A stretch of 30,687 bases of DNA, taken from the IMG/VR virus record IMGVR_UViG_3300049846_000522, positions 1-30,687 of that record, one strand, 5' to 3'. Below the pieces are notes generated by a model that had not been told where the DNA came from, did no database searches, and was given only the letters and a program-made list of their open reading frames with translations. This DNA is from a virus. The first letter of the stretch is position 1. Each line of letters opens with the position of its first letter. Of the stretch, positions 2,009 through 23,761 are shown piece after piece. Both the position numbers and the translations under genes were made by a program.

Positions 2009-2208
2009 TCGTCGGCACGGATATCGAACGCGACGGCGGCCCGCATGTAGTTGTTCGTCTCGCCGATCACCTGGGCAATTTCTATACGTGTTCGTTCTTC
2101 GAGCCTGCTTCGTGGGGTGATGCCGAGGTCAATGCCAAGGTGGCGCAGATTGTCGCGGACCTTGAACAGCGTCTAGCCGACGCTGAATTCGAGCAGATCG
2201 TCGGATGA
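2005..2208 (+). CDS. Small hypothetical phage protein
   Basis: A 67-residue acidic protein. I start it at ATG 2005, which overlaps the previous stop as ATGA and follows a GGGGGCAAAGGG purine stretch; an in-frame ATG at 1975 would overlap the neighbour by more. The first half looks like short beta strands (IVGTDI, HVVVRLADHLG, FYTCSFF) and the second half is a helix (residues about 43-66). It ends in an ATGA overlap with the beta-helix gene. No family recognised. Confidence 0.55.
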   Translation: MIVGTDIERDGGPHVVVRLADHLGNFYTCSFFEPASWGDAEVNAKVAQIVADLEQRLADAEFEQIVG

Positions 2209-3530
2209 CGACCAAATACGTGAACAGCGGCGCAGGCGGCGCTGCCACGGGAAACGACTGGACCAACGCCTACACCACGCTGGGCGCTGCTGTAACGGCT
2301 GGTGCTGACGCTATTCTGGTCCACAAGGCGCACAACGAATCGCTGGGCGCTGATACGACGTACACGCTGACCGTTGATACAGAGATTTTGTGTGTCGACA
2401 AGGATGCATCGGACGCACTATCAACGGGCGCGATCATTGGCAGCCAGGCTACCAACTGGGCCATCACGTTCGCCGGGGCGTTCAAGCTTTACGCATACGG
2501 GATAGATTTTCGAAACGGGACCGGCGCAACCGCAAAAAACATCATATTCAGTTCGACGGACGGCGCGCATACAGAACTGGAAAGTTGTGTTATCAACCTT
2601 ACCGGCTCAAGCACGACAAACCGCATTTTGTTTGGTGGTAACGGGGCTTCGTTCAACTGCTATACGCTCGTTAAAAACTCGACACTTAAGTTCGCCTCAA
2701 CCTCTCAGGGGATAAACACGTTCGAGGTGGTGGACCTCTCGGGCGTTACAATCGACTCTGGCGGCAGCGCCCCGTCGACTCTTTTCCTTGCAAACACAAA
2801 CTCGGCTGGCGTTAGGATCAACTGTAGCGGCTGCGACTTTTCGTTCATCACTGGGACGCTGGTTGCGGACCGTGGTGCAAACGGGACGGGCACTGCCGTG
2901 CTTCGGCAATGCAAGATCGGGGCAGGGGTTACGATCAAGGGGGCCTCTGCCACTGTTTTGAACAAGGGCAACAGCGACGTAATGGCGTTCGACTGCAATA
3001 GCGGCGATACGCACATCAGCTTTTACCACTCGGACGCGTTCGGCGAGACGACCGTAAGCACAACGTACTCGATCAGCGACGGCGCGCAGATCAACTCTAC
3101 CGCTGTTAGTTGGAAGATCGTCACCACAGCGAACTGCTCATTTTTCACGCCGTACACAAGCCCCTGGATCGCGCGCCCGCATACTGGTACCAGTGCGGTA
3201 ACCGCCTCTTTCGAAGGCTTCCGCGCAGGCTCTACGACGGTTTACAAGGATGACGCGATATGGGGCGAGTGGCAGAGCAAGGTCACAGCCTCAAGCACTC
3301 AGGTAACCACGTATAACGACCGGGCGACGCCTGCCGTCACGCCTACGGGTTCGAACCAGACCAGCACAAAGACCTACAGCGACTGGTCGGGCGGTTCTGC
3401 CTCTGATAGCACCTTCAAGCTGTCGTCGTCGAGTTTTACGCCTGCTGAATCCGGGCATGTATTCGGCAGGATCGTTGTCGGCGGCGCGTCTCTAACGGCC
3501 TACGTTGACCCGCAGATACGGCTGGCATGA
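2205..3530 (+). CDS. Right-handed beta-helix structural protein
   Basis: The 441-residue product opens with KYVNSGAGGAATGNDWTNAY and a following LGAAVTAGADAILV. This is the standard opening of right-handed parallel beta-helix proteins: a YV(N/D) strand, a TGNDWxNAYxTL turn, then repeated strands. The middle is rich in Ser, Thr, Asn and Gly in short repeating strands. The C-terminus (about residues 395-441) looks like a separate beta domain. Such proteins occur in phage fibres, spikes and neck or tail appendages. It is coupled by ATGA to both neighbours and lies with other probable virion proteins. It may be a receptor-binding or polysaccharide-binding part; enzymatic residues are not evident. 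Confidence 0.65.
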   Translation: MTTKYVNSGAGGAATGNDWTNAYTTLGAAVTAGADAILVHKAHNESLGADTTYTLTVDTEILCVDKDASDALSTGAIIGSQATNWAITFAGAFKLYAYGIDFRNGTGATAKNIIFSSTDGAHTELESCVINLTGSSTTNRILFGGNGASFNCYTLVKNSTLKFASTSQGINTFEVVDLSGVTIDSGGSAPSTLFLANTNSAGVRINCSGCDFSFITGTLVADRGANGTGTAVLRQCKIGAGVTIKGASATVLNKGNSDVMAFDCNSGDTHISFYHSDAFGETTVSTTYSISDGAQINSTAVSWKIVTTANCSFFTPYTSPWIARPHTGTSAVTASFEGFRAGSTTVYKDDAIWGEWQSKVTASSTQVTTYNDRATPAVTPTGSNQTSTKTYSDWSGGSASDSTFKLSSSSFTPAESGHVFGRIVVGGASLTAYVDPQIRLA

Positions 3531-3988: not shown

Positions 3989-4449
3989 TGGCACAGGGTG
4001 ATGTCGTCTTTTTCGATCAGGCCTTAGTGGATGCATGGTCCGCCAAGCACAACCTTGCAAGCGACACGATCAAGGTAGGACTCATCAGTAGCGCGGTCAC
4101 CCCGGCGGCTACAACCTCTGACCCTCGCTGGGGCGCAGGCGGAAGCACCAACCTTTCGACGAACGAACTGAGCGCAGGCGGTAACTACACCGCAGGCGGG
4201 GCGACCATCGTAAGCACGAGCATCGTTCTGTCCGCTGGCGTGGCGAAGTTCGACGGTAATGACATCAGTTGGGCGGCATCTGGAAGCAACCCAAGCACGT
4301 CGGCAAGGTGGGGGATCATCTACAACAGCACAGATGCCGGGAAGCGGTGCCTGGGCTATGTCGACCTGGGCAGCGACTTCGATATGAGAACCGGCCAACT
4401 GGACATCGTTTGGAACGCGTCCGGTATTTCGACAACGGATCAGGTATGA
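3988..4449 (+). CDS. Phage tail-associated structural protein (conserved hypothetical)
   Basis: This 153-residue protein matches a pattern I know from many tailed phages: a start with GDVVFFDQAL, a segment DTIKVGLISSAVTP, a GGNYTAGG turn, an ISWAASG strand, then ARWGIIYNST and a closing QLDIVWNASGI. The family is found beside tail or fibre adaptor genes and is believed to be a virion component, though its exact role is not settled. It starts with a TAATG overlap and ends with an ATGA overlap into the adaptor gene, which supports joint function. Confidence 0.6.
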   Translation: MAQGDVVFFDQALVDAWSAKHNLASDTIKVGLISSAVTPAATTSDPRWGAGGSTNLSTNELSAGGNYTAGGATIVSTSIVLSAGVAKFDGNDISWAASGSNPSTSARWGIIYNSTDAGKRCLGYVDLGSDFDMRTGQLDIVWNASGISTTDQV

Positions 4450-4712
4450 GGACGTTCCGTAAAGACACAGAGGAAACCATCACGCTTGGCGTTGACTGGT
4501 CTGGCCGCATGGACGGGGAAACCATATCGGCGTCGCAATGGGACGTTGCTGTCGGCCTCACATACGAATCCAGTGACTACGCAGATACGACGACCGACGT
4601 TCTTGTTTCGGGTGGAACGGAAGGGACTCAGTACACACTGAGCAACACGATCACGACGACCGAAGGGAACATATACCAAAGATCATTCATTGTTCAGGTA
4701 GTGGATAGGTGA
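4446..4712 (+). CDS. Fibre-tail adaptor-like protein
   Basis: The 88-residue product has the layout of the small phage fibre-tail adaptor family: an N-terminal RTFRKDTEETI strand, DWSGRM, an ISASQWDVAVGLT turn, then VSGGTEGTQYTLSN and a closing RSFIVQVVDR. It folds as an immunoglobulin-like beta domain in that family and is thought to join fibres to the tail. The ATG at 4446 overlaps the previous TGA. Finding it next to the 3988 gene matches the pairing seen in other phages. Such a gene is more familiar in siphophages, which makes its place in a P22-like genome notable. Confidence 0.65.
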   Translation: MRTFRKDTEETITLGVDWSGRMDGETISASQWDVAVGLTYESSDYADTTTDVLVSGGTEGTQYTLSNTITTTEGNIYQRSFIVQVVDR

Positions 4713-5164
4713 TGCGCTGGTACGTGTATGAATTATGCGACCCGCGCACAGAGCGACCCTTCTACATTGGGAAGGGTTGCGGTCGGCGAATGTACAGTCA
4801 TCTCAAGAAGTCAGCCGCGCAGCATGTAAAGGTTGTAGTGGACGCGATCAGGGCGCGCGGGGATGAGCCAGTCGTTCGAGAGGTCGCCTATTTCTGGGAA
4901 GAACAAGACGCCCTGAACTTCGAGACGCGGCGAATTGCCGAAAACAAAAACCTTGCAAATCGGGCGAAGAATAAAGCCCGGCCGATTTCCTTTGGGCTAT
5001 ACGAAACGCTTAGGGGCGCTTTGCTAGGGACTCTGCCAGCAGAAGTTATTGTTAGGCGTCTCGGGATAATCGAATCCGGGCTGCATCAAATCAAAAATCC
5101 TGAACACGTAGAACTGTATAAGCAGTTGATTTGCATAGGGCGCGGTGCTGCTGCGCGCATGTAA
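4712..5164 (+). CDS. GIY-YIG homing endonuclease-like protein
   Basis: The 150-residue product begins with RWYVYELCDP and continues with FYIGKGCGRRMYSHLK. These are the YVY and YIG strands of the GIY-YIG nuclease core, followed by the usual Arg, Tyr and His. A conserved Glu (FEEQ-type region, here in NFETRRIAE) is the likely metal ligand. The family makes single- or double-strand cuts and spreads its own gene. It starts at ATG 4712, overlapping the stop of the adaptor gene (a GTG at 4709 is also possible), and sits just before the terminase genes, a favoured site for homing genes in phages. The C-terminal half contains a probable helix-turn-helix (GTLPAEVIVRRLGI). Confidence 0.75.
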   Translation: MRWYVYELCDPRTERPFYIGKGCGRRMYSHLKKSAAQHVKVVVDAIRARGDEPVVREVAYFWEEQDALNFETRRIAENKNLANRAKNKARPISFGLYETLRGALLGTLPAEVIVRRLGIIESGLHQIKNPEHVELYKQLICIGRGAAARM

Positions 5165-5186: not shown

Positions 5187-5486
5187 ATGGACGCCAACGG
5201 GAACAAGACTGGCGGAAGGCAGAAAGGCACGCCAAACAAAGCAAAGCAGGCATTGCTTGAGGCAATACAGCAGAGGTTCCCGGACTATCACCCCGTTTTG
5301 GCGATGGCAGACATAGCGAACGACATGGATCTGCCGGTAGATCTTCGATTCAGCGCACACAAGGAAATCGCCCAATACGTCGAGCCTAAGCGCAAGGCCA
5401 TTGAGGCGTCTGTAAAGCTCGATGGCGAATTGGAGATAACCCAAATTGAGCGCCATATCGTCAAAGCTTCAGATTCCAACGGCTGA
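5187..5486 (+). CDS. Probable terminase small subunit (DUF5681-like)
   Basis: The 99-residue product opens with KTGGRQKGTPNKAKQAL, a Gly/Lys-rich signature seen in DUF5681-type phage proteins that precede large terminase genes. A helical segment follows (residues 22-75). Small subunits recognise the packaging site and hand DNA to the large subunit. Its stop lies 41 bases inside the next gene, so the two are coupled. The start is the ATG at 5187; upstream sequence has only a weak ribosome binding site, and translation could also be helped by the preceding gene. The assignment rests mainly on position and the signature. Confidence 0.6.
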   Translation: MDANGNKTGGRQKGTPNKAKQALLEAIQQRFPDYHPVLAMADIANDMDLPVDLRFSAHKEIAQYVEPKRKAIEASVKLDGELEITQIERHIVKASDSNG

Positions 5487-6762
5487 GATATTCGAGCCTC
5501 TGCTTTACCCGGCTCGCTATAAGGGTGCGTTCGGCGGTCGAGGTTCCGGCAAGTCGCACTTCTTCGCTGAGAAACTGATAGACGATAGCCTGTACGAAAA
5601 GGGGCTGCGAAGCGTCTGTATTCGGGAAGTGCAGAAGTCTCTGAAAGAGTCGGCAAAGCGGCTGATCGAGGACAAGTTGGCGCAGTTCAGTTTGGGCGAG
5701 CGCCACGGGTTCAAGGTATTCAACGAAGTCATTCAAACGCCCGGCGATGGGATTATCACGTTCCAGGGCATGCAGGATCACACTGCGGAATCCATCAAAT
5801 CCTTAGAAGGATTCAAGCGGGCGTGGGTCGAGGAAGCACAAACGCTTTCCGATAGATCGTTGCAGTTGCTAAGGCCGACGATCAGGGCGGATGATTCGGA
5901 ACTCTGGTTCTCATGGAACCCTCGCAGACGGAATGATCCTGTTGACGTGATGCTACGGCAGGGCGAATTGCCTACGAATGCCGTGGTTGTCAGGGCGAAC
6001 TGGAACGACAACCCGTGGTTTCCTGCCGTTCTGGAACAAGAGCGCCAGGATTGCCTGCGAAAGAATCCCGACCAGTACGACCACATCTGGGAAGGTGGTT
6101 ACGTTACGGTCACGTCGGGCGCTTACTACGCTCGTCACCTTGCAGAAGCGCGGCAAGAGCATCGAATCGGTCGGGTTGCTGCTGATCCTCTGTTGACCAT
6201 TCGCCTGTTTGTAGACATCGGCGGAACGGGCGCTAGGGCCGACGCATTCTCGATGTGGGCGGCGCAGTTCGTAGGGCAAGAGATCCGGGTTCTCAAGTAT
6301 TACGAAGCGCAGGGACAGCCTCTAGCGAGCCATCTCGACTGGATGCGTCGGAATGGCTACACACCAGACAAGGCGCAAATCTGGTTACCCCATGATGGGG
6401 CGACACAGGATCGCGTCTACGACGTTTCGTATGAAAGCGCGTTCAAAGACGCAGGCTATCAGGTCACGGTTGTGCCGAATCAGGGGAAGGGCGCAGCAAA
6501 GGCCAGGATTGAGGAAGCCAGAAGGCTGTTTCCTCAAATGTGGTTCGACGAGGAAGGCTGTCGCGGCGGGCTAGAAGCCCTCGGTTGGTATCACGAAAAA
6601 CTGGACGAAGTGCGGAACATCGGACTAGGCCCTGAACATGACTGGGCCAGTCACGGTGCGGACGCATTTGGTCTTATGTGCGTCGTCCATGAGGTTCCAA
6701 AGAAGGTGAATATCGAAATGATGATGGAGCCTAAGATTGGAGGCGGCGGTTGGATGCGATGA
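5446..6762 (+). CDS. terL: Terminase large subunit (packaging ATPase/nuclease, Terminase_3/PBSX type)
   Basis: This 438-residue protein powers DNA packaging and cuts the concatemer at the portal. Visible parts are Walker A GGRGSGKS (30-37), Walker B ending in WVEEA (about 127-131), the coupling motif SWNP (156-159), and a C-terminal RNase-H-like nuclease with acidic residues in FVDIGG (Asp257), HDGA (Asp317) and HGADAF (Asp406). The length is normal for the family. The start is TTG at 5446: GGAG lies at 5432-5435, and the resulting N-terminus (residues up to FGGRGSGKSHFF) matches the compact form usual in this group. It overlaps the small subunit by 41 bases and the portal gene by a few bases. 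Confidence 0.92.
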   Translation: MSAISSKLQIPTAEIFEPLLYPARYKGAFGGRGSGKSHFFAEKLIDDSLYEKGLRSVCIREVQKSLKESAKRLIEDKLAQFSLGERHGFKVFNEVIQTPGDGIITFQGMQDHTAESIKSLEGFKRAWVEEAQTLSDRSLQLLRPTIRADDSELWFSWNPRRRNDPVDVMLRQGELPTNAVVVRANWNDNPWFPAVLEQERQDCLRKNPDQYDHIWEGGYVTVTSGAYYARHLAEARQEHRIGRVAADPLLTIRLFVDIGGTGARADAFSMWAAQFVGQEIRVLKYYEAQGQPLASHLDWMRRNGYTPDKAQIWLPHDGATQDRVYDVSYESAFKDAGYQVTVVPNQGKGAAKARIEEARRLFPQMWFDEEGCRGGLEALGWYHEKLDEVRNIGLGPEHDWASHGADAFGLMCVVHEVPKKVNIEMMMEPKIGGGGWMR

Positions 6763-8687
6763 AAGACGACAAGATTTTAGAAGAAGCTCTCAAGCGGTTT
6801 GAAAAAGCCGAACAGGCCGAGCAGGAAAACCGCGATCTTGCCGAAGAGGATTTCAAGTTCGCTGCTGGTGAGCAATGGCCTGACGACATCCGTCGGGAAC
6901 GTGAACAGAGCGACCGGCCGTGCTTAACTTTTAACCGCCTGCCTGCATTCATCGCTCAAGTTGTCGGGGATGCGAGGCAGAACAAGCCCGCGATCAAGGT
7001 ATTGCCCTGTGACTCTGGTGCGGACATCGAGACGGCAGAGGTCTACAACGGCCTGATCCGCAACATTGAAAGCCAGTCCCGCGCGACACAGGCTTACATC
7101 ACCGCATTCGAGCATTCCGTAACCGGGGGCATGGGCGCGTTTAGAGTACTTACCAAGTACGCCAGTGACGACAGCTTCGAGCAAGACATCCGCATCGAGC
7201 GGATCACCAACCCTTTCTCTGTTCACTGGGACCCGAACGCCAGGGAATACGACAAGAGCGACGCACAGTGGTGCTTTGTCTCGGAATGGATGACCAAGGA
7301 AGCATTCGAAGCGAAGTATCCGAAGGAAACGCCAAGCGACTGGAAGGAAGAATACCGGGGCAGTTCATGGGCGTTGGATGATCGGGTTCGGGTTGCCGAA
7401 TACTGGTGCAAGAAGCCGGTAACCAAAAAGATCGGGCTTATCGAAGGCCGGGCTATCGAGATCAAGCCGGGGATGGAAGGATTCCCGTTCGAGATGACTC
7501 GCACGGTCGAGAGTTTCAAAGTGGTTCGTTACGTCCTCTCGGGCCACGCGGTCCTCGAAGGTCCGAGCGAGTGGGCAGGGCGGTGGATTCCGATCGTTCC
7601 CGTTTTTGGCCCTGAAGAATGGGTGGATGATCGTATCCGCTATCGCTCGCTGATTCGGTATGCGAAAGACCCGCAGAGGCAGTACAACTACTGGCAGTCG
7701 GTCATCACCGAGAAGGTTGCGCTAGCGCCTAAGTCGCCGTGGCTTGTGACCCCCGCGATGATTGCCGGTCTAGAACGTTTCTGGAACGCTGCCAACAAAG
7801 AGAATCGGGCATACCTTCCGTATAACCCTGATCCTACTGCGGGACGCCCTGAGCGGCAGCAGCCAGCCTTCATCCAAGCCGCAGAACTTCAGCAGTCCGC
7901 GCAGGCTGTTGATGACATGAAGGCCACGATGGGGATGTTCGACGCATCCCTCGGCGCTCAGAGCAATGAGACTTCGGGTAAAGCGATCATCGCCCGGCAG
8001 AGGGAAGGCGATAACGCAACCTATGCGTGGATAGACAACCTCGCCCGTTCTATCCAGCACGCAGGAAGAATTTTGGTTGACCTGATCCCGCGCATTTACG
8101 ACACGGCCCGAATCGTTCGAATCATGGGCGAGGACGAGGCTGCGGAAATGATCCCGATCAACTACGTGCTTCCCACGGGCGAAATCATTAACGACCTGTC
8201 CGTCGGGAAGTATGACGTAGAGATCGTGGTCGGCCCGTCCTACGCCACGAAGCGCATGGAAGCCGCTGAGTCGATGATGGCGTTTGTACAGGCTATCCCG
8301 CAGGCGGGCGCGGTTGCTGGCGATCTTATTGCGAAGTCACTTGATTGGCCGGGGGCAGAGGCAATAGCAGAACGGCTTAAAAAGATGCTGCCGCCTGGGC
8401 TGGCAGAGGACAAGGGAGAGCAACCCGCGCCGCCGCCCCCGCCTGACCCGATTCAGGTGGCAGAGGCGCAGGCAAAGCAGGCTGACGCCGAGAAGAAGCA
8501 GGCCGAAGCGGACGGGGTTCGCCTCGACAACGCGAAGAAGGAACTCGAACTAGCCGCCGTGACTGGCGGGATTCAGGACATGGTTGCCGCTGAAGTGCAG
8601 CGGGTGATTATGGCAATGATGCAGCCTGATCCAATGCAACAGCAGCTACCGCCGCCTGAACCATACGGGCAGCCGATCACCATCTAG
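6750..8687 (+). CDS. Portal protein, P22-like
   Basis: The 645-residue product is the ring through which DNA enters and leaves the capsid. It has the P22-type opening: an acidic helix, then GEQWPDDIRREREQSDRPCL and FNRLPAFIAQVVGD, followed by NPFSVHWDPNA and a central region with DASLGAQSNETSGKAIIARQ. The C-terminal part (about 560-625) is a long Gln/Ala/Lys-rich coiled coil, consistent with the barrel seen in P22 portals. A GGAGG at 6739-6743 is spaced 6 bases from TTG 6750, so I use that start; ATG 6759 (ATGA overlap with the terminase stop) is the alternative. Its TAG stop shares the palindrome CTAG with the stop of the convergent HNH gene. Confidence 0.88.
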   Translation: MDAMKDDKILEEALKRFEKAEQAEQENRDLAEEDFKFAAGEQWPDDIRREREQSDRPCLTFNRLPAFIAQVVGDARQNKPAIKVLPCDSGADIETAEVYNGLIRNIESQSRATQAYITAFEHSVTGGMGAFRVLTKYASDDSFEQDIRIERITNPFSVHWDPNAREYDKSDAQWCFVSEWMTKEAFEAKYPKETPSDWKEEYRGSSWALDDRVRVAEYWCKKPVTKKIGLIEGRAIEIKPGMEGFPFEMTRTVESFKVVRYVLSGHAVLEGPSEWAGRWIPIVPVFGPEEWVDDRIRYRSLIRYAKDPQRQYNYWQSVITEKVALAPKSPWLVTPAMIAGLERFWNAANKENRAYLPYNPDPTAGRPERQQPAFIQAAELQQSAQAVDDMKATMGMFDASLGAQSNETSGKAIIARQREGDNATYAWIDNLARSIQHAGRILVDLIPRIYDTARIVRIMGEDEAAEMIPINYVLPTGEIINDLSVGKYDVEIVVGPSYATKRMEAAESMMAFVQAIPQAGAVAGDLIAKSLDWPGAEAIAERLKKMLPPGLAEDKGEQPAPPPPPDPIQVAEAQAKQADAEKKQAEADGVRLDNAKKELELAAVTGGIQDMVAAEVQRVIMAMMQPDPMQQQLPPPEPYGQPITI

Positions 8688-9331: not shown

Positions 9332-10147
9332 ATGACTGATGAAAACCTTTCAGGGGTTGCCCCTGCCGAGGACGCTACCCCTTTGCCTGACGCGCCGGAA
9401 ACGGTGGGTGAGGTAGAGGAACAAGAGCAGTCGGAATCGTCCACCGACGAAGGCGAATCGGAACAGACCAAGAAAATTGGTGGTGTGACGAAACGCATAA
9501 ATGAACTGGTCGCACAACGCGAGGAAGAAAAGCGAAGGGCGCAACGGCTCGAATCGATGCTGGAACAGGTACTGGCTAACCGCCCGCAACCTGAGAAAGC
9601 ACCGGAACCAGTTTTAGCGAAACCGCAAGGCGAGCCGAAACTAGAGGACTTTGCGACCTATGAGGAATTCGTAGACGCAAGGGCCGACTGGCGGGCAGAA
9701 CAGCGAATCCAGCAGTGGGAACAGAGGCAGCGGGATGCTGAAGCCGAGAGGCAGAAGGCAACCCAGGCGCAGACGTTCCAGGCGAAGGTGCAAGAGTACC
9801 GAAGCCAGACGCCGGATTTCGATGCGGTCGCACTGAACCCTTCACTGCCTGTAACCGACGCGATGGCAGAAATCATTAACGGGTCCGAGAACGGCCCGGA
9901 ACTTCTCTACCAGCTCGGTAAAAACCCGGCAGAAGCCGCACGCATAGCAGCACTTCCCCCGCTGATGGCGGCAGTTGAACTGGGAAAGTTCGCAGTGAAA
10001 GCGAGCCTACCCCAACCAAAGAAACTGTCCTCCGCACCACCGCCAGTCGAGCCGCTTACGGGCGGGGCAGGCACTCTGAACGTCGATCCCGACAAGATGA
10101 GCGCCGACGACTGGATGAAGTGGAGGCAATCAACACTGAAAAGGTAA
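9332..10147 (+). CDS. Scaffolding protein
   Basis: This 271-residue protein is very acidic at the N-terminus (residues 1-45, full of Glu, Asp and Pro). A long charged coiled coil follows (about 50-150, with REEEKRRAQRLESML and QWEQRQRDAEAERQ), then a Pro-rich region and a C-terminal helical segment ending in DDWMKWRQSTLKR. A basic helical C-terminus that contacts the coat protein is the hallmark of P22-type scaffolds. It lies directly between the portal region and the coat gene, where scaffold is expected. The ribosome binding site is modest (GAGAG before ATG). No protease motif is seen. Confidence 0.75.
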   Translation: MTDENLSGVAPAEDATPLPDAPETVGEVEEQEQSESSTDEGESEQTKKIGGVTKRINELVAQREEEKRRAQRLESMLEQVLANRPQPEKAPEPVLAKPQGEPKLEDFATYEEFVDARADWRAEQRIQQWEQRQRDAEAERQKATQAQTFQAKVQEYRSQTPDFDAVALNPSLPVTDAMAEIINGSENGPELLYQLGKNPAEAARIAALPPLMAAVELGKFAVKASLPQPKKLSSAPPPVEPLTGGAGTLNVDPDKMSADDWMKWRQSTLKR

Positions 10148-10150
10148 ACC

Positions 10151-11422
10151 ATGGCTAACACTATCCTGACGCCTACCGCGATCACGCGGGAAGCAGCACG
10201 GGTTCTGCACGGCAAACTGTCGTTTGTCGGCACCGTGAATAGGCAGTACGACAACCGCTTTGCCGTCAGCGGCGCGAAGATCGGAACCACCCTCAACATC
10301 CGCATGCCCCCGAAGTACACCGTGCGAACTGGTGCGAGCTTCAGCGGGCAGGATCACGTTGAACGCTCGACCCCGCTGACTGTGAGTTCGCAGGCCGGTA
10401 TTGACCTGTCGTTCACGACTTCGGAACTGACCATGTCGCTGGACGAATTCAGCTACGTGGTTCTCGAACCCGCCATGAGCCAGCTCGCGGCGCACATCGA
10501 GAACGCGTGTCTGAGCGCGGCGTACAAACTGGTAGCGAACTACAACGGAACGACCACGACCTCGGGTCAGATCACGTTCAAGCAGTTCGACAACCAGGGT
10601 TCGCTGCTCACTGAACAGCTTGCGCCGATGTCGAACCGGGTGGCTCTGCTCTCGCCGACCAGCCGGAACGAGTTTAACGACGCGACAAAGGGTCTGTTCC
10701 AGGCGTCGCAAAACATCTCGCAGCAGTACCGCGAAGGTATGCTGGGCCGCACCTCGGGCTTTGATGTTTATGAGTCCACGTTCCTTCCGACCCACACCAC
10801 CGGCACGCTGGCGGGCACCCCGCTGACGACCGGCGCGGCTCTCGGAACTTCGACTACTTCGAACGCGTGGGTGTCCTCGACCGACCTTAGCGTGGACGGC
10901 GCGACTGCTGGCACGACTCTGAAGGCTGGCGACATCATCACGCTGGGCACGACCTCGACTGGTGTTCTGGACGTACACCCGGAAAGCAAGACGAGCCTCG
11001 GGCGTCTGAAGCGTTTCGTTGTCCAAAGCGACGTGACGCTGACGACCTCGACCAGCACGTACACGGTAACCGTCAAGCCGGGCCTGATCTGGGGTTCGGG
11101 TAACGCGTACCGCAACGCACTGCTGACCGGCACGACCACGACCGACAACATGACGGTCACTCTGATTGGTAACGTCGGCACGACCTATGGCCAGAATATG
11201 GCATACCATCGTGATGCATTCGTGTTCGCCACGGCGGACCTGATCGACGTGTCCAACCTGGGTTCTTGGGGTGCTCGTGAGGTGATCGACGGCATTTCGT
11301 GCCGCCTCGCTCGCCAGTACGACGCATCGACTGACGCGGTATACAACCGTTTCGACGTGTTGTACGGCTTCGGCGGTCTGTACCCGGAACTGGCTGTCCG
11401 TAACTGGTACACGCTGTCGTAA
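10151..11422 (+). CDS. Major capsid (coat) protein, P22 gp5-like
   Basis: The 423-residue product begins ANTILTPTAITREAARVLHG, then FVGTVNRQYDNRF, the N-terminal arm seen in the P22 coat family (HK97 fold). A later segment, RTGASFSGQDHVERS, and a Ser/Thr/Gly-rich insertion (about residues 220-300) fit an I-domain-like region. The C-terminus, YDASTDAVYNRFDVLYGFGGLYPEL, is also typical of the family. The length is near that of P22 coat (430). The start has AAGG shortly upstream. Codon use is strongly skewed to favoured GC-ending codons compared with neighbours, as expected of the most abundant virion protein. Confidence 0.88.
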   Translation: MANTILTPTAITREAARVLHGKLSFVGTVNRQYDNRFAVSGAKIGTTLNIRMPPKYTVRTGASFSGQDHVERSTPLTVSSQAGIDLSFTTSELTMSLDEFSYVVLEPAMSQLAAHIENACLSAAYKLVANYNGTTTTSGQITFKQFDNQGSLLTEQLAPMSNRVALLSPTSRNEFNDATKGLFQASQNISQQYREGMLGRTSGFDVYESTFLPTHTTGTLAGTPLTTGAALGTSTTSNAWVSSTDLSVDGATAGTTLKAGDIITLGTTSTGVLDVHPESKTSLGRLKRFVVQSDVTLTTSTSTYTVTVKPGLIWGSGNAYRNALLTGTTTTDNMTVTLIGNVGTTYGQNMAYHRDAFVFATADLIDVSNLGSWGAREVIDGISCRLARQYDASTDAVYNRFDVLYGFGGLYPELAVRNWYTLS

Positions 11423-11499: not shown

Positions 11500-12270
11500 A
11501 TGGATAAGACACGACGCCTTGGAAAGGCGAAACAACCCGAGATACGCGCGTTTGTAGCCACGCCTGCCTACGATGGAAAGGTGGATGTGGATTACGCTGT
11601 TTCGCTGGCCGATTCCTGTATGCACGCGACCATGCTGGGCATAAAGGTAAAGGCCTGCGTTATGGGTAACGGCGCGTTCATCGAGATGGCGAGGAACATT
11701 TTCGCCAAGCAGTTCCTTGATAGCGACTGCACGCACCTGTTTTACATCGACTCGGACCTGAAGTGGGAAAGCCGGGCATTCGTTGGGCTGTTGCAGGCTG
11801 GTCGACCTGTAGCCTGTGGGATTTATCCCAAGCGGCAAAGCCCCGAAGAATACCCGGTCCACTACATTGAGGACGAGAGCAACCCTGGAATCCAGATTTT
11901 TGAGGGCGGTTGGGTTGGATGCGACAAGGTGCCGACCGGCTTCTTGTGCATTGAACGCAGCGTCATCGAGGAAATGGTTAAGCACGTCCAGGTCTTGGAA
12001 CTGAAGGACCACGGCCCGGTGCCGTGGCTGTTCAGTACCGAGATTGTCGAGAACAAGGACGGCACCAAGACCTTCATGGGCGAAGATTTCGCTTGGTCCG
12101 TGAAATACGGCCAGATTTTCAACAAGCCGATCTATGCGTGGCCTGACTTCGACTTTATTCACCATGGTTATCGCGGGAACTGGCACAAGTTCATGCTCGC
12201 TGCGGTAAAGCGGGCAGAGGAAGAAGGTTCCCTGATTAATCTGGTTACGTCGGAGGTGGTGCATGGCTAA
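11500..12270 (+). CDS. Glycosyltransferase-like protein, GT-A fold
   Basis: The 256-residue product shows a GT-A nucleotide-sugar enzyme pattern: an N-terminal FVATPAYDGKVDVDYAVS strand-turn, a helix NGAFIEMARNIFAKQF, then THLFYIDSDLKWES with the metal-binding DSD (84-86). Later GIYPKRQSPEEYP and a GEDFAWSVK acidic segment fit the acceptor side. The family transfers a sugar from a nucleotide donor; donor and acceptor cannot be told here. It lies after the coat gene and overlaps the methyltransferase by 8 bases, starting a three-gene cassette. There is no membrane segment, so it should act in the cytoplasm, either on phage protein or on a precursor. Confidence 0.7.
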   Translation: MDKTRRLGKAKQPEIRAFVATPAYDGKVDVDYAVSLADSCMHATMLGIKVKACVMGNGAFIEMARNIFAKQFLDSDCTHLFYIDSDLKWESRAFVGLLQAGRPVACGIYPKRQSPEEYPVHYIEDESNPGIQIFEGGWVGCDKVPTGFLCIERSVIEEMVKHVQVLELKDHGPVPWLFSTEIVENKDGTKTFMGEDFAWSVKYGQIFNKPIYAWPDFDFIHHGYRGNWHKFMLAAVKRAEEEGSLINLVTSEVVHG

Positions 12271-12823
12271 GGTCATTTCGAATGAAGCAGAGTTCGTGAG
12301 TTCGCCTATCAAGGGTCACGAATTACTGATCGGCTGCGGGAACAACCGCGCAAAGCAGTTGGCGCAGAAGGGCGACAGCAAAGACTGGCATGATGTCGTC
12401 ACTCTGGACATCGATCCGAATTGTAAGCCGGACGTGCAGTGGGACTTGGCACACATTCCGTATCCTTTCGAGGACGAGACGTTTACGGAAATTCACGCCT
12501 ACGAGGTGCTTGAACACGTCGGGCAGCAGGGCGACTGGAAATTCTTCTTCAAGCAGTTCGAAGAATTCCACCGCATCCTGAAGCCGGGCGGCATGATCTT
12601 CGCAACTGTCCCTATGTGGGACACGGAATGGGCATGGGGCGATCCGGGTCACACTCGGGTGTTCACGCCGGGCACCATTTCTTTCCTCAGCCAGTCGCAG
12701 TACGAGCAGGATGTCGGCAAGAGCACAATGACCGATTACCGGCACTTCTATAAGGCTGATTTCGAGATCGAGGGTTGCCAAGAAGTCGGCGGACGGCTCT
12801 GTTTTGTCCTGTCGAAGAAATGA
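12263..12823 (+). CDS. Class I SAM-dependent methyltransferase
   Basis: The 186-residue product has the Rossmann methyltransferase motifs: LLIGCGNNRAK (21-31, SAM-binding loop), VTLDIDPN (46-53, acidic residue for ribose), DLAHIPYPFEDETF (61-74) and YEVLEHV (80-86). The FATVPMWD segment corresponds to the post-motif IV strand. This is the methyltransferase type 11 pattern that works on small molecules, sugars or proteins. ATG is preceded by GGAGG with a 6-base spacer, so it is probably well translated. It overlaps the glycosyltransferase by 8 bases and the radical-SAM gene by 4. Together they imply a shared product. Substrate unknown. Confidence 0.82.
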   Translation: MAKVISNEAEFVSSPIKGHELLIGCGNNRAKQLAQKGDSKDWHDVVTLDIDPNCKPDVQWDLAHIPYPFEDETFTEIHAYEVLEHVGQQGDWKFFFKQFEEFHRILKPGGMIFATVPMWDTEWAWGDPGHTRVFTPGTISFLSQSQYEQDVGKSTMTDYRHFYKADFEIEGCQEVGGRLCFVLSKK

Positions 12824-13635
12824 TCGAACTGCTTCGTGAGTTGTATCTCGACCAGCCCAAAGAGGTATCGCTAGAGACGTTTTCGCGGTGCAACGCCGCG
12901 TGTACGTTCTGCCCTTATCCCACGCTTGACCGGATCGGCACGAAGATGCCGGACGAACTGCTGTGGCGGCTGGTCGATGAGATGTCAGAGTGGACGATCC
13001 CGTTCGCGTTTTGCCCGTTCAAGGTCAACGAGCCTTTGCTAGACAAAAGGCTGATGCCGTTACTTGAGCGGGTGGAATCGCAAACGATAGCGGACATTCG
13101 GCTATTCACCAACGGGCAGGCGCTTACTGAAAAGTGGGTCGAGCAGATCAACCAACTCGACCGGCTAGAAGTGCTGTGGATATCGCTTAACGACCATAGA
13201 CCGGAAGAATACCGGCAGTTGATGGGGTTGGACTTCGAGCGCACTGCGCGAAACCTCGACTTCCTGCATGACTCGGATTTCATCCATCCCGTGACCATCT
13301 CGCGGGTTGGGCACAGCGAGGAATTCCAGCGGTACGTGCATTCCCGTTGGCCTAACTTCGACATCGTGCAGATCAAGAAAGATGGCTGGCTTGGATACAC
13401 CGAGCCAGGGGTGGACGTTGTGCCGAATACGCCCTGCTCGCGGTGGTTTGAGTTGAGCATCATGGCAACCGGAAAAGTTGCGCTGTGCTGCATGGACGGT
13501 GAGGGGAAGTTCCAGATTGGCGACCTGACGACGCAGACGATGCTGGAAGTCTACAACTCGCCGCATTGGCGCGACCGCCGGGAACGGATGATTTCGCGGA
13601 AGGAAGTGTTTCCCTGTTCCACTTGTAGTTATTGA
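12820..13635 (+). CDS. Radical SAM protein with SPASM-like C-terminus
   Basis: The 271-residue product carries the [4Fe-4S] motif CNAACTFC (Cys24, Cys28, Cys31), spaced CX3CX2C, in the context SLETFSRCNAACTFCPYPTL. A NEPLLD segment (70-75) replaces the usual GEPLL. The C-terminus is SPASM-like: Cys206, the CC pair 223-224 (VALCCMDGEG) and Cys266/Cys269 (PCSTC), which probably bind a second iron-sulfur cluster. SPASM proteins modify peptides, proteins or sugars by radical chemistry. I start it at ATG 12820 (ATGA overlap with the methyltransferase); a longer reading would only shadow that gene. The length is short for the family but the core and SPASM cysteines are present. Confidence 0.85.
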   Translation: MIELLRELYLDQPKEVSLETFSRCNAACTFCPYPTLDRIGTKMPDELLWRLVDEMSEWTIPFAFCPFKVNEPLLDKRLMPLLERVESQTIADIRLFTNGQALTEKWVEQINQLDRLEVLWISLNDHRPEEYRQLMGLDFERTARNLDFLHDSDFIHPVTISRVGHSEEFQRYVHSRWPNFDIVQIKKDGWLGYTEPGVDVVPNTPCSRWFELSIMATGKVALCCMDGEGKFQIGDLTTQTMLEVYNSPHWRDRRERMISRKEVFPCSTCSY

Positions 13636-13642
13636 GGAAGTA

Positions 13643-14032
13643 ATGGCCACCGCTAGAGACCTGATAACGATGAGCCTGCGGACGCTGGGGGTCCTGCACT
13701 CTGGCGAAACGGCGAGCGCAGAGGAAGGCAGCGACGGCCTCGACACCCTTAACCAACTCATGAACTCATGGCTTTATGAGGGCATCGACCTCGAGTGGAC
13801 GACGCTGACGAGTCTCAACGATACCATCGACTACCCCGATGACCACATCGGTCCATTCCGCTACAACCTTGCGGTTGCCTTGTCCCCTGACTACGGGATA
13901 CAGGTCACCCCTGCCATTGCTGCTCTGGCCCGAAACGGCTACGACCAACTGCGCCGAGAGTATCTGGACAACCGCGAACTGTCCGTAGACAACGGGCTTC
14001 TTGAACGGCACAACTGGGTCAGGCTGTTCTGA
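13643..14032 (+). CDS. Tail accessory factor, P22 gp4-like head-tail adaptor
   Basis: The 129-residue product resembles P22 gp4: an opening ATARDLITMSLRTLGVLHSG, then LDTLNQLMNSWLYEGIDLEW, and a later RYNLAVALSPDYGIQV. In P22 it binds the portal first and builds the neck that closes the capsid after packaging. It starts 8 bases after the radical-SAM stop with GAGG ahead of ATG, and its stop overlaps the gp10-like gene (TGATG). This gene order is the same as in P22 (gp4 then gp10), which supports the call. Confidence 0.8.
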   Translation: MATARDLITMSLRTLGVLHSGETASAEEGSDGLDTLNQLMNSWLYEGIDLEWTTLTSLNDTIDYPDDHIGPFRYNLAVALSPDYGIQVTPAIAALARNGYDQLRREYLDNRELSVDNGLLERHNWVRLF

Positions 14033-15381
14033 TGGAACTTCAGGTTGCGCTGAATTCCGGCCAAGCCACCCAGATCAACGCCGAGCGGCTGGTTAACATC
14101 TACGCAGAGCAGTCCTCTGGAAAGGCTCGCGTCAGGTTAACCGGCACCCCTGGCCTTACCCTGTTCTCTACCTGTGGCAGTTCCCCTGTCCGTGGCATGG
14201 CGACGATGGACGATGTTCTATACGTCGTCACTAGCAGCCTGTATTCCGTGGATTCTGCCGGGACGGCTACAGAAATCGGGGCTATTTCCGGGACCGGGCT
14301 TGTCCAGATGGCGTCTAACGGCACGCAACTAGTCATCGTTGCGGATGGGACCATTTACGTCTACGACGGGACACTATCCACGGTTACGGACCCCGACGCG
14401 CCTGTTGCCGAGAGCGTGGACTATCTCGACGGTTACCACATCTTCTCGGACGGTTCGGGGTCTTTCTATATCTCTAGCCTATACGACGCTACCACATTCG
14501 ACGCGCTCGACTTCGCATCTGCTGAGAGCAATCCAGATCCAATCCGTAGGGTGTTCGTTGACCACCGGGAACTGATTCTTTTTGGTTCCGAGACAACCGA
14601 GGTGTGGGTCAATACTGGCGGCGTGGACTTCCCTTTCGAACGCCAGCCCGGTGCGATTGGGGAAAAAGGGATAGCAGGGGCCAATGCCTGCGCGAAGCTC
14701 GACAACAGCGTGGTTTGGATCGATCAAAATGGCGTCGTCCGCAGAATGGCATCCGGTTATGCCCCGCAAAGAATATCGACTCACGAAGTCGAGCGCGCGC
14801 TATCGGAATCGACATCTCTCGCGGATGCAGAGGCGTTCGCATATACCCAGGAAGGGCATGAGTTTTTCGTGCTGACCGCGCCGGGTTCCGGTACGTGGGT
14901 ATTCGACGCCGCGACCTCTCTATGGCACGAGCGGCAGTCTTATGGCGATGACCGCTGGCGGGCGCGTTGCTATGCCTTTGCCTACGAAAAGCACCTGGTG
15001 GGCGACTACACGAGCGGCAACGTGTACGAACTGGACTATTCGGTACACGATGAGAACGGCGACATTCTGCTGTCGGAACTGATCTTCCCGCCGATCCACG
15101 CCGAACAGAATCGCTTCAGGATGCACCGCCTTGTTCTGGACATGGAACACGGCGAGACAGAGCCGTATGGCGAGAGTCAGGTGCGTCTCGACCTTTCAGA
15201 CGATTCTCAGGACTGGACTACGCTGGGTTATGGGTCAATGGGGGAAACCGGCCAGCGTTCAACCAGGACCGTCTGGCGGCGTTTGGGGCAGCATCGGAAC
15301 GCGCATCTTAGATTCCGCATAAGCGACCCTGTTCGACGCACCATCTATGCGGCCTACGCCGAGCTCGAGTCTGATGCGTAG
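14032..15381 (+). CDS. Packaged DNA stabilisation protein, P22 gp10-like
   Basis: The 449-residue product begins LQVALNSGQATQINAERLVN and IYAEQSSGKARVRLTGTPGL, the opening of the P22 gp10 family (Phage_stabilise). The rest is a beta-propeller-like series of short strands, with VDHRELILFGSETTEVWVNTG and QPGAIGEKGIAGANACAKLD near the middle as expected. In P22, gp10 hexamers sit under gp4 and carry the tail needle and spike attachment. The length is close to that of P22 gp10 (472). It overlaps the next gene by 8 bases. Confidence 0.85.
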   Translation: MELQVALNSGQATQINAERLVNIYAEQSSGKARVRLTGTPGLTLFSTCGSSPVRGMATMDDVLYVVTSSLYSVDSAGTATEIGAISGTGLVQMASNGTQLVIVADGTIYVYDGTLSTVTDPDAPVAESVDYLDGYHIFSDGSGSFYISSLYDATTFDALDFASAESNPDPIRRVFVDHRELILFGSETTEVWVNTGGVDFPFERQPGAIGEKGIAGANACAKLDNSVVWIDQNGVVRRMASGYAPQRISTHEVERALSESTSLADAEAFAYTQEGHEFFVLTAPGSGTWVFDAATSLWHERQSYGDDRWRARCYAFAYEKHLVGDYTSGNVYELDYSVHDENGDILLSELIFPPIHAEQNRFRMHRLVLDMEHGETEPYGESQVRLDLSDDSQDWTTLGYGSMGETGQRSTRTVWRRLGQHRNAHLRFRISDPVRRTIYAAYAELESDA

Positions 15382-16021
15382 ATTCTTCAACGCGCGCATC
15401 TGGTCCCAACTCGGCTGGCCGCCTGTGGCTATCGAGTACCTACGGCTCAACGACGTTGATACCACCACGGTACTCGACGCCATTCCTGTCGGCGGGACGG
15501 CTAACCAAGTCCTGAAGAAAACCACGGCAACGGACTACGACACCGAATGGTCGGCGGTTTCCCATGACGAACTGAGCGACGTTCAGGGCGGGGCGGTTTC
15601 GGAACATTACCACCTGACCAGCGCGCAGGTATCCGGCCTGCATACGCGTTCTCATGCAGTCACCAGCACATCCGACCATACGGCGGGGAACTGGAAGGTT
15701 TTTTACTCGGACGGGTCGGGCAATGTTATCGAGCTGGCCCTCGGCGCATCCGGCTACCTGAAAAGCAACGGCGCATCTTCTGCCCCCACGTTCGGATTCC
15801 CTGCCCACAGCGAAACGGGAAGCCTTCAGGGCGGGACAACGGGCGAGTACTACCACCTGACGAACGCGATCTATTCGCGCCTGTACACCGGCACAGGGAC
15901 GCCAGAGGGCGCTGTTACTGCTGGGGTAGGGTCTTTGTACCTGCGTCAGGACGGCGGGGCGGCGACGACGCTATACGTGAAGGAAAGCGGTTCAGGGAAC
16001 ACTGGTTGGGTTGCCAAGTGA
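15374..16021 (+). CDS. Fibre-like tail protein
   Basis: The 215-residue product has a short basic N-terminus, then repetitive beta and turn segments containing two EHYHLT/EYYHLT motifs typical of trimeric phage fibres. The C-terminal module (about residues 167-215: GTGTPEGAVTAGVGSLYLRQ and TLYVKESGSGNTGW) is shared with the fibre at 22880, so these may be parts of one tail appendage set. I start it at ATG 15374, overlapping the gp10-like stop; this gives the N-terminus MRRFFNARIWSQLGW. In P22 the tail-needle gene sits after gp10, so a needle-like or spike-hub role is possible, but the sequence is more fibre-like. Confidence 0.6.
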   Translation: MRRFFNARIWSQLGWPPVAIEYLRLNDVDTTTVLDAIPVGGTANQVLKKTTATDYDTEWSAVSHDELSDVQGGAVSEHYHLTSAQVSGLHTRSHAVTSTSDHTAGNWKVFYSDGSGNVIELALGASGYLKSNGASSAPTFGFPAHSETGSLQGGTTGEYYHLTNAIYSRLYTGTGTPEGAVTAGVGSLYLRQDGGAATTLYVKESGSGNTGWVAK

Positions 16022-22806: not shown

Positions 22807-22844
22807 GAAGGGCCACAAGTGTCGCAAGCACTTCGTGGCCCTTC
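22807..22844. repeat. Strong hairpin upstream of tail fibre 2
   Basis: GAAGGGCCAC-AAGTG (22807-22821) pairs with CACTT-c-GTGGCCCTTC (22829-22844): 15 bp with one bulge and a 7-base loop. There is no T-run on either side. It lies between the HNH start and the fibre 2 ATG, so it is in the 5' leader of fibre 2. It may be an RNA regulatory stem, an RNase processing site or an insertion scar. Confidence 0.5.
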
Positions 22845-22879
22845 GCCATTATACCAACGTTGTTTTGTTAGAGGTTGAA

Positions 22880-23761
22880 ATGGCTTTGATTTTTCAGGCG
22901 GGGCAGCAGTTCTTCGATTCCAATGGCCTGCCCGTCGCAGCCGGAACGCTGACCTTCTACGACAGCGGTACAACGAATTACCGCGCGATCTACACCGACG
23001 CGGACATGCAAACCGAGGCGGATAACCCGTATACATTGGATGCCTCTGGCCGGATGTCCCAGAACATCTACGGCACCGGGAACTTTACGGTGATCCTGAA
23101 GAAGTCCACGGGCGCCACCGTATTCTCGCGCGATGAGGTATTCGGCTGGTCCATTACTGACCCGGCTACCGAATCTATAATCCCTGCATCAGATGATTCT
23201 ATCGCTCTTGGATCGGCTCTAAAGCGTTTCGCTTCGCTTTATGCCGTGGATGCAATCCTGACGACTGCGACCGCGACGACGATCACGGCAACCGGCAATA
23301 TCTCAGGCGCGGACCTGACCGCATCCGGCAAGGTTCTGGTCGGCTCGACTCGGCAGATTGTGAGCGGAACAGGCTCGCCGGAATCGGCGGTTACCGCGCC
23401 TATGGGATCGCTGTATCTCAGGACGGATGGGGCATCAGATACCACGCTATATGTTAAAACGTCCGGGTCAGGGAATACCGGCTGGCAGGCGGTTTATACC
23501 AACGTGTTGACCGCATCTACAACTTGGGACGTTGGAAGCCTCGCGGACGGGGCAGGGGAAACAAAATCGGGGATCACGGTCACGGGCGCTGCTCTGGGTG
23601 ACTTCGTGGACGCTAGCCTGTCCGTAGACCTTCAGGGAATGCTGCTTACGGCATGGGTAAGTTCCGCCAATACCGTGGCCGCGCGAATTCAGAACGAAAC
23701 CGGAAGCGGGCCGATTGACCTTGCCTCGGCAACGCTTCGGGTGAGAGTCAGGAAGGCGTAA
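22880..23761 (+). CDS. Tail fibre/spike 2 with shared anchor domain
   Basis: The 293-residue product repeats the anchor of tailspike 1 in residues 1-92 (QFFDSNGLPVAAGTL, AIYTDADM, NPYTLDASGRMSQNIYGTG, FSRDEVFGW), then diverges. The middle (about 95-165) contains DDSIALGSALKRFASLYAVD, a motif typical of phage fibres. Residues about 168-210 repeat the module of the 15374 protein (GTGSPESAVTAPMGSLYLR and TLYVKTSGSGNTGW). The C-terminus forms a beta domain. AGAGG sits before ATG 22880. It has no beta-helix lyase part, so it may be a second receptor-binding protein or a structural side fibre. Two different appendages sharing one anchor suggest a choice of receptor modules. Confidence 0.72.
   Translation: MALIFQAGQQFFDSNGLPVAAGTLTFYDSGTTNYRAIYTDADMQTEADNPYTLDASGRMSQNIYGTGNFTVILKKSTGATVFSRDEVFGWSITDPATESIIPASDDSIALGSALKRFASLYAVDAILTTATATTITATGNISGADLTASGKVLVGSTRQIVSGTGSPESAVTAPMGSLYLRTDGASDTTLYVKTSGSGNTGWQAVYTNVLTASTTWDVGSLADGAGETKSGITVTGAALGDFVDASLSVDLQGMLLTAWVSSANTVAARIQNETGSGPIDLASATLRVRVRKA

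Follow-up and report, generated by a model that had tools for sequence, protein, structure and literature searches.

A glycosyltransferase (GT), a methyltransferase (MT) and a radical-SAM enzyme (rSAM) that lie in a row between the coat and neck genes of a P22-type phage probably form a cassette for a glycan on the coat, or elsewhere on the virion, in which the GT would fit the capsid while the MT and an optional rSAM would tailor the sugar. That the target lies in the virion is well supported, and the chemistry is our proposal. Taken by itself, the link of these enzymes to the coat or the head is a conclusion that we hold with good confidence.

Organization of the locus

The stretch of DNA analyzed here, referred to as the window, is the IMG/VR virus record IMGVR_UViG_3300049846_000522, with a length of 30,687 bases; part of the genome is absent from the record. 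Pfam and PHROG matches of its open reading frames reveal a late region of P22 type, in which the terminase (5446-6762), portal (6750-8687) and scaffold (9332-10147) genes are followed on the + strand by a P22-type coat gene (10151..11422; PF11651, 3.5e-32; phrog_283, 5.7e-65), the product of which is the proposed acceptor of the modification. The GT (11500..12270), the MT (12263..12823) and the rSAM (12820..13635) come next, also on the + strand, and the slot is closed by a gp4-like head-tail adaptor (13643..14032, + strand; PF11650, 6.9e-7; phrog_637), with a gp10-like gene (14032-15381) beyond it. The coat and GT genes are separated by 77 nt, the GT and MT genes overlap by 8 bp and the MT and rSAM genes by 4 bp (ATGA), and 7 nt remain before the gp4-like gene, which is exactly the arrangement given in a preliminary description of this DNA. 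The rSAM starts at the ATG at 12820, the TTG at 12775 in the list of open reading frames being an upstream extension, and no promoter- or terminator-like sites above chance were found inside the cassette.

Elsewhere in the window, a short open reading frame preceding the terminase gene (4709-5164) has a weak GIY-YIG match that falls under the cut-off (PF22945), and a short repeated domain (TGTGSPEGAVTAPVGSLYLRTDGG...GW) occurs in tail-type proteins at 15347-16021 and 22835-23761. The same domain is found in another contig, L013, in the open reading frame directly upstream of the MT (7151-7456).

The glycosyltransferase and methyltransferase

The GT has no Pfam match up to an E value of 0.1, and its sole family match is phrog_1574 (2.4e-17), labeled “unknown function” in PHROGs. 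In an alignment of 30 relatives D84 and D86 (DSD) are invariant and D196 (GED) is kept, and the AlphaFold model (pLDDT 91) adopts a GT-A fold that aligns with many GT-A enzymes at Z scores of 13-18. Among known folds the model comes closest to STIV A197, an archaeal virus protein (Z 17.9 over 159 of 191 residues, 18% identity); the glycosyltransferase portion of human LH3 (Z 16.5) ranks next, ahead of Mimivirus R699, Mnn9 and ColGalT1, while LH3, ColGalT1 and GalNAc-T take the top ranks in Foldseek. Modeled fold and acidic DxD motif together make the protein a predicted GT-A glycosyltransferase; its likeness in the model to protein glycosyltransferases is suggestive of the acceptor and, as a shared fold, not proof of it.

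Given the fold of the model, phrog_1574 as a family could be renamed. In three relatives without the rSAM (L050:9238-10503, L051:9537-10775 and L201:6057-7334), the GT in the slot between coat and gp4 continues into a long C-terminal extension. No Pfam match was found for these extensions; those of L050 and L051 resemble a class I methyltransferase by eye (EYGSGLST, EMGCGLST) and, if this is true, represent a natural GT-MT fusion.

The MT matches PF08241 (2.1e-7; 31.9 bits against a cut-off of 21.2) and, as also seen in an alignment of 31 relatives, is a class I SAM-dependent methyltransferase. It has at least 300 relatives; some occur without a GT or an rSAM, and some have genes for DNA polymerase and the primosome nearby. 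Weak PHROG matches of the MT carry the label DNA methyltransferase, and phages do use glycosyltransferases for DNA hypermodification, so that the three enzymes could be thought to build a modified base that protects the packaged DNA; the part of the genome absent from the record could hold further base-modification genes. Such a role is very unlikely in our judgment, as the genes have a late location in the head region and are co-inherited with the coat, neither the MT nor the GT has a recognizable DNA-recognition part, and the GT, by its fold, is closest to GT-A enzymes that act on proteins and surface glycans. The T4-type DNA glucosyltransferases are GT-B.

The radical-SAM enzyme

The rSAM, a protein of 271 aa, matches PF04055 (1.4e-11; 45.3 bits against a cut-off of 29.5), and its CX3CX2C motif, C24/C28/C31, is invariant in an alignment of 26 relatives. 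Among the C-terminal auxiliary cysteines of these sequences C206 is invariant and C223, C266 and C269 are nearly so, with C224 adjoining C223. The twitch subclass has one auxiliary cluster, and SPASM proteins typically bind two, AuxI and AuxII (PMC9012708). The preliminary description spoke of a SPASM radical-SAM enzyme, of which the radical-SAM part stands; a full SPASM with two auxiliary clusters was rejected, as the cysteine count is too low, although PF13186 matches (3.4e-9). Four auxiliary cysteines fit the twitch subclass of the radical SAM superfamily, with a predicted single four-cysteine auxiliary cluster as in BtrN.

BtrN is also the nearest solved relative by sequence (1.6e-5, 19% identity), with YydG/EpeE second, and the nearest solved fold to the model (pLDDT 87), with Z 19.2, an rmsd of 3.4 and 222 aligned residues. 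The next fold stands at Z 17.6, and the peptide-modifying enzymes, with which a comparison had been suggested, follow close behind BtrN (ChlB, SuiB, EpeE, anSME and SkfB, Z 16-17.6). As BtrN is best by both sequence and fold and peptide enzymes are near, a sugar-like substrate is favored without being proved, and we lean slightly toward an rSAM that acts on a sugar rather than a peptide.

These peptide-enzyme folds, the second place of YydG/EpeE among the sequence matches and the coat-linked position of the gene would all suit an rSAM, and perhaps an MT, that modifies a virion protein directly by epimerizing, oxidizing or crosslinking coat residues, with the GT adding its sugar independently. 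We consider this unlikely: BtrN remains the better match, the enzyme has a single auxiliary cluster and no peptide-recognition extension, and the spacing of the genes (77, -8, -4 and 7 nt) contains neither a precursor gene nor room for one. A RiPP maturase system was rejected on the same ground, there being no room inside the cassette for a precursor peptide gene between its members.

The genomic neighborhoods of cellular rSAM relatives are mixed, some lying beside sugar genes and others among housekeeping genes. In L079 and its near-twin L081, which has the same layout, an NAD-epimerase/GDP-mannose-dehydratase-type gene and a C-methyltransferase gene are near the rSAM relative, and other loci contain a TPR-GT41 protein (L077) or WecG (L073). 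The rSAM relatives of L079:367-7567 and L081 are about 40% identical and the locus is of a sugar type; in a BLAST clustering, an 829-aa open reading frame upstream in this locus groups with the TPR-GT41 protein from L077, while the largest group of the clustering is probably an antisense artefact of the rSAM itself.

Conservation among P22-type coats

Viral contigs from IMG/VR were scanned with each single protein and with alignments of the rSAM and of the MT, and genes were mapped with custom profiles. The resulting sample holds 67 distinct P22-type coats (97% cut), with counts that are biased to carriers because most contigs were retrieved via cassette genes. The order coat-GT-MT-rSAM is intact in 36 of the 67. 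A further 17 have coat-GT-MT without the rSAM, the MT there mostly abutting gp4, and one coat each shows coat-GT-MT with a 37-codon rSAM remnant (L178), an rSAM relocated upstream of the scaffold (L024), and the MT and GT swapped (L155). Three have the GT only, some of them cut short, and the eight coats with no cassette genes are all distant. By these variants, above all the 17 without the rSAM, GT and MT are the core, to which the rSAM adds a third step that is optional. In L016 and L022 the same coat-GT-MT-rSAM block comes with different scaffold and neck genes (phrog_3927, phrog_2941 and phrog_3287), and a cassette search of phage records at the DNA level gave no match.

A gene order conserved over many independent contigs excludes a chance arrangement, and the view that the three genes belong together in a head operon is confirmed. 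As a set of three they are frequently intact and not obligate, given that the rSAM is often absent and that MT relatives occur without either partner. This gain and loss of the rSAM, down to the remnant in L178, together with HNH endonucleases (L028, MW202691), GT-containing fusions and unrelated open reading frames at the same place in relatives, could be taken to mean that the slot is neutral and the enzymes are mobile accessory genes without functional link to the coat. We find this highly improbable, since the GT stays with the coat clade, the motifs of the enzymes are kept and the MT-rSAM pair recurs in other head clusters.

Some coat genes of this family themselves appear to be interrupted. 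In L022 (1280-3250) the coat is split after about residue 33, residues 1-33 being encoded at 1280-1393 and residues 34-413 at 2087-3250, with a 179-aa open reading frame between them; the coats of L016 and L003 start matching only at residue 26-27, and in L016 an HNH/endonuclease VII-type open reading frame (4357-5043) lies just upstream. The pattern resembles that of an intron or of an inserted homing endonuclease. Endonuclease genes, HNH or other, recur in or beside the cassette (L028:7043-7483, L201:5256-5837 and L020:14495-15055) and are a possible vehicle of its spread.

Two environmental phages in GenBank, MW202573 and MW202691, fill the place between a P22-type coat and the tail adaptor with an MT and a GT annotated as A197, or with a fusion that contains a GT; known from annotation only, they differ from the window in having no rSAM and in coats that are 32-34% identical. 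The P22-like phages PAE2, PBR31 and DSL-LC05 share the order scaffold-coat-gp4-gp10, with coats about 32-36% identical, but have only small hypothetical open reading frames between coat and gp4.

Co-inheritance with the coat

In the 36 loci that have all of scaffold, coat, GT, MT and gp4, coat distances between pairs of loci correlate with those of the GT at 0.66, as against 0.28 for the scaffold and 0.36 for gp4, and the bootstrap interval for the coat-GT minus coat-scaffold difference is 0.16-0.57. Since scaffold and GT both adjoin the coat and their correlations differ, adjacency alone does not explain the coat-GT value; as physical neighbors, GT and coat could hitchhike. In the 23 loci with an rSAM, the correlation is 0.76 for MT-rSAM and 0.47 for rSAM-gp4.

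The coat tree unites the carriers of the cassette, the window among them, in a single clade (1 change, SH-aLRT 94), and the portal tree does not (3 changes, AU p 0.02), both results being for the data without L037, which is cut off before the MT, and L165, a distant coat with a cassette; the two rows were removed after the fact, and a coat tree that includes them rejects a single carrier clade. Conserved columns that are diagnostic of carriers number 34 in the coat and none in portal, terminase and scaffold at the same threshold, a comparison that has few non-carriers behind it, above all for terminase. Ser or Thr occupies 14 of these 34 coat columns as against 64 of 294 variable ones, a modest excess among sequences that are related and non-independent, and the diagnostic residues include S73, T74, T236, T296, T298 and T299. 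The motif R72-S73-T74 (10364..10372, + strand), kept in coats that come with GT and MT and replaced in coats without a cassette, is one of several candidate acceptor sites, and residues 296-299 (T296, T298 and T299; 11036..11047, + strand), a Thr cluster that is likewise specific to coats with the cassette, are another candidate. The overall Ser/Thr richness of carrier coats was discarded as a signal, at 20% against 17% only not being informative, and no match by sequence was found between the P22 coat structure and the coat of the window. Coat columns that separate carriers with the rSAM from those without it were sought, and none was convincing (largest difference 0.45), which also speaks against direct modification of coat residues by the rSAM.

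The preliminary description preferred a virion target to host conversion, and here the head location and the co-inheritance with the coat support the virion, most likely the coat, the modification itself being presumptive. Glycosyltransferases of marine myophages have been interpreted in print as acting on the host envelope (PMC7029224), a passage in PMC2909390 has the P22 gtr genes modifying O-antigen, and the sugar genes beside some cellular rSAM relatives would agree with a similar function, in which a late change to O-antigen or capsule would keep out superinfecting phages or free the progeny. We judge such a role distinctly unlikely for the present enzymes in view of their head-operon site in four coat families, the co-evolution of GT and coat, and a carrier clade in the coat tree with none in the portal tree; in addition the GT consists of one soluble domain and has no GtrA or GtrB partners in the cassette. 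A gtr serotype-conversion cassette as such was rejected, as the neighbors of the GT are coat, MT, rSAM and gp4, with no GtrA flippase or GtrB bactoprenol transferase beside it.

The MT-rSAM pair in phages with other capsids

An MT and rSAM in the head cluster together with a phrog_1574 GT are common to four coat families, phrog_283, phrog_1328, phrog_212 and phrog_9953. The gene order is terminase-MT-rSAM-portal-scaffold-coat-...-GT-neck in L020 (coat phrog_1328), terminase-portal-MT-rSAM-GT-scaffold-coat in L013 (coat phrog_212), and scaffold-coat-...-MT-rSAM-GT-neck in L030 (coat phrog_9953). The cassette is therefore locked between coat and neck, as had been stated, in the P22-coat lineage only, and elsewhere the pair can separate the portal from the terminase or from the scaffold. 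Of the 65 rSAM loci in viral contigs, some of which are copies of one contig, almost all are in head regions, L131 being the clear exception and L029 too short to tell. Independent occurrence far from head genes, which would have spoken against the original idea, is thus not the rule for the rSAM, while MT relatives are also found off head genes.

In the rSAM tree L013 falls inside the P22-coat group, beside L014 (SH-aLRT 83, within a starred clade). The two are 64% identical in the rSAM, 48% in the MT and 29% in the GT (over part of its length), and their coats are without similarity, a clear case of transfer of MT-rSAM between phages with unrelated coats. The simplest reading of these identities is a portable MT-rSAM pair sharing a small-molecule or glycan substrate, alongside a GT that must fit its capsid. 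More generally the rSAM is 54-64% identical between phages with unrelated coats, which is awkward for direct protein modification if the enzyme were to read the coat sequence. We tentatively extend the reading, at somewhat less than even confidence, to a transferable module of MT and twitch rSAM that makes an oxidized or epimerized methylated sugar in unrelated capsid types, with a coat-matched GT in each lineage.

Proposed function

The window holds a phage-encoded GT genetically tied to virion genes, as belongs to virion glycosylation. In the glycan scheme that we prefer, GT, MT and rSAM would be made together with the shell from the late operon, and the GT would glycosylate the capsid, with Ser/Thr of the coat as the most probable target and a nucleotide-sugar of the host as donor. 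The donor must be host-made, since the open reading frames examined revealed no nucleotide-sugar genes. The MT would methylate the capsid-bound sugar or the activated donor, and the optional rSAM would make a further change to the sugar, the likeliest reactions being a two-electron oxidation as in BtrN or an epimerization at a carbinol carbon. We infer the coat as acceptor, the residue that accepts, the identity of the sugar, the sugar as MT and rSAM substrate and the order of these steps; the biological use may be shielding, adsorption or stability.

The GT belongs to the same compact size class as A197, a viral GT-A enzyme. In STIV, as far as the account in PMC10551542 goes, the major coat protein B345 is glycosylated, the GT is essential and glycosylation by the virus GT has been proposed; STIV differs in being an archaeal virus with an unrelated double-jelly-roll coat, and the sections of that account dealing with it describe no methyltransferase or radical-SAM partner (PMC10551542). 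In the mycobacteriophages Che8, Corndog and Myrna, a phage-encoded glycosyltransferase glycosylates capsid and tail proteins, according to a passage in PMC12363180 citing Freeman 2023. This is like the window in having a phage-encoded GT, a likeness by description, and unlike it in that the passage mentions no coat-GT-MT-rSAM cassette (PMC12363180). BtrN likewise is a small twitch enzyme with a single four-cysteine auxiliary cluster, but it works in a cellular pathway for the antibiotic butirosin, as dehydrogenase of a free aminocyclitol, the carbocycle 2-deoxy-scyllo-inosamine.

In the literature searched, mostly outside subscription journals, we found neither a coat-linked cassette of GT, MT and rSAM nor an earlier link between an oxygen-sensitive radical enzyme and a virus particle.

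Implications

Glycosylated virions are known from a few phages and archaeal viruses, and donor, acceptor and purpose are mostly open there. A compact, recurrent cassette that is inherited with the coat across divergent phage backbones names a candidate for the acceptor and can be tested with four genes. Decoration of a virus shell by a radical-SAM enzyme, if true, would be new chemistry for virions. In marine virome papers (PMC7029224, PMC7150976) rSAM and GT genes are assigned to the host O-antigen, to DNA protection or to general metabolism, and for those that virome surveys count as auxiliary metabolic genes or as genes for host O-antigen the cassette offers an alternative reading, in which they may serve the virion.
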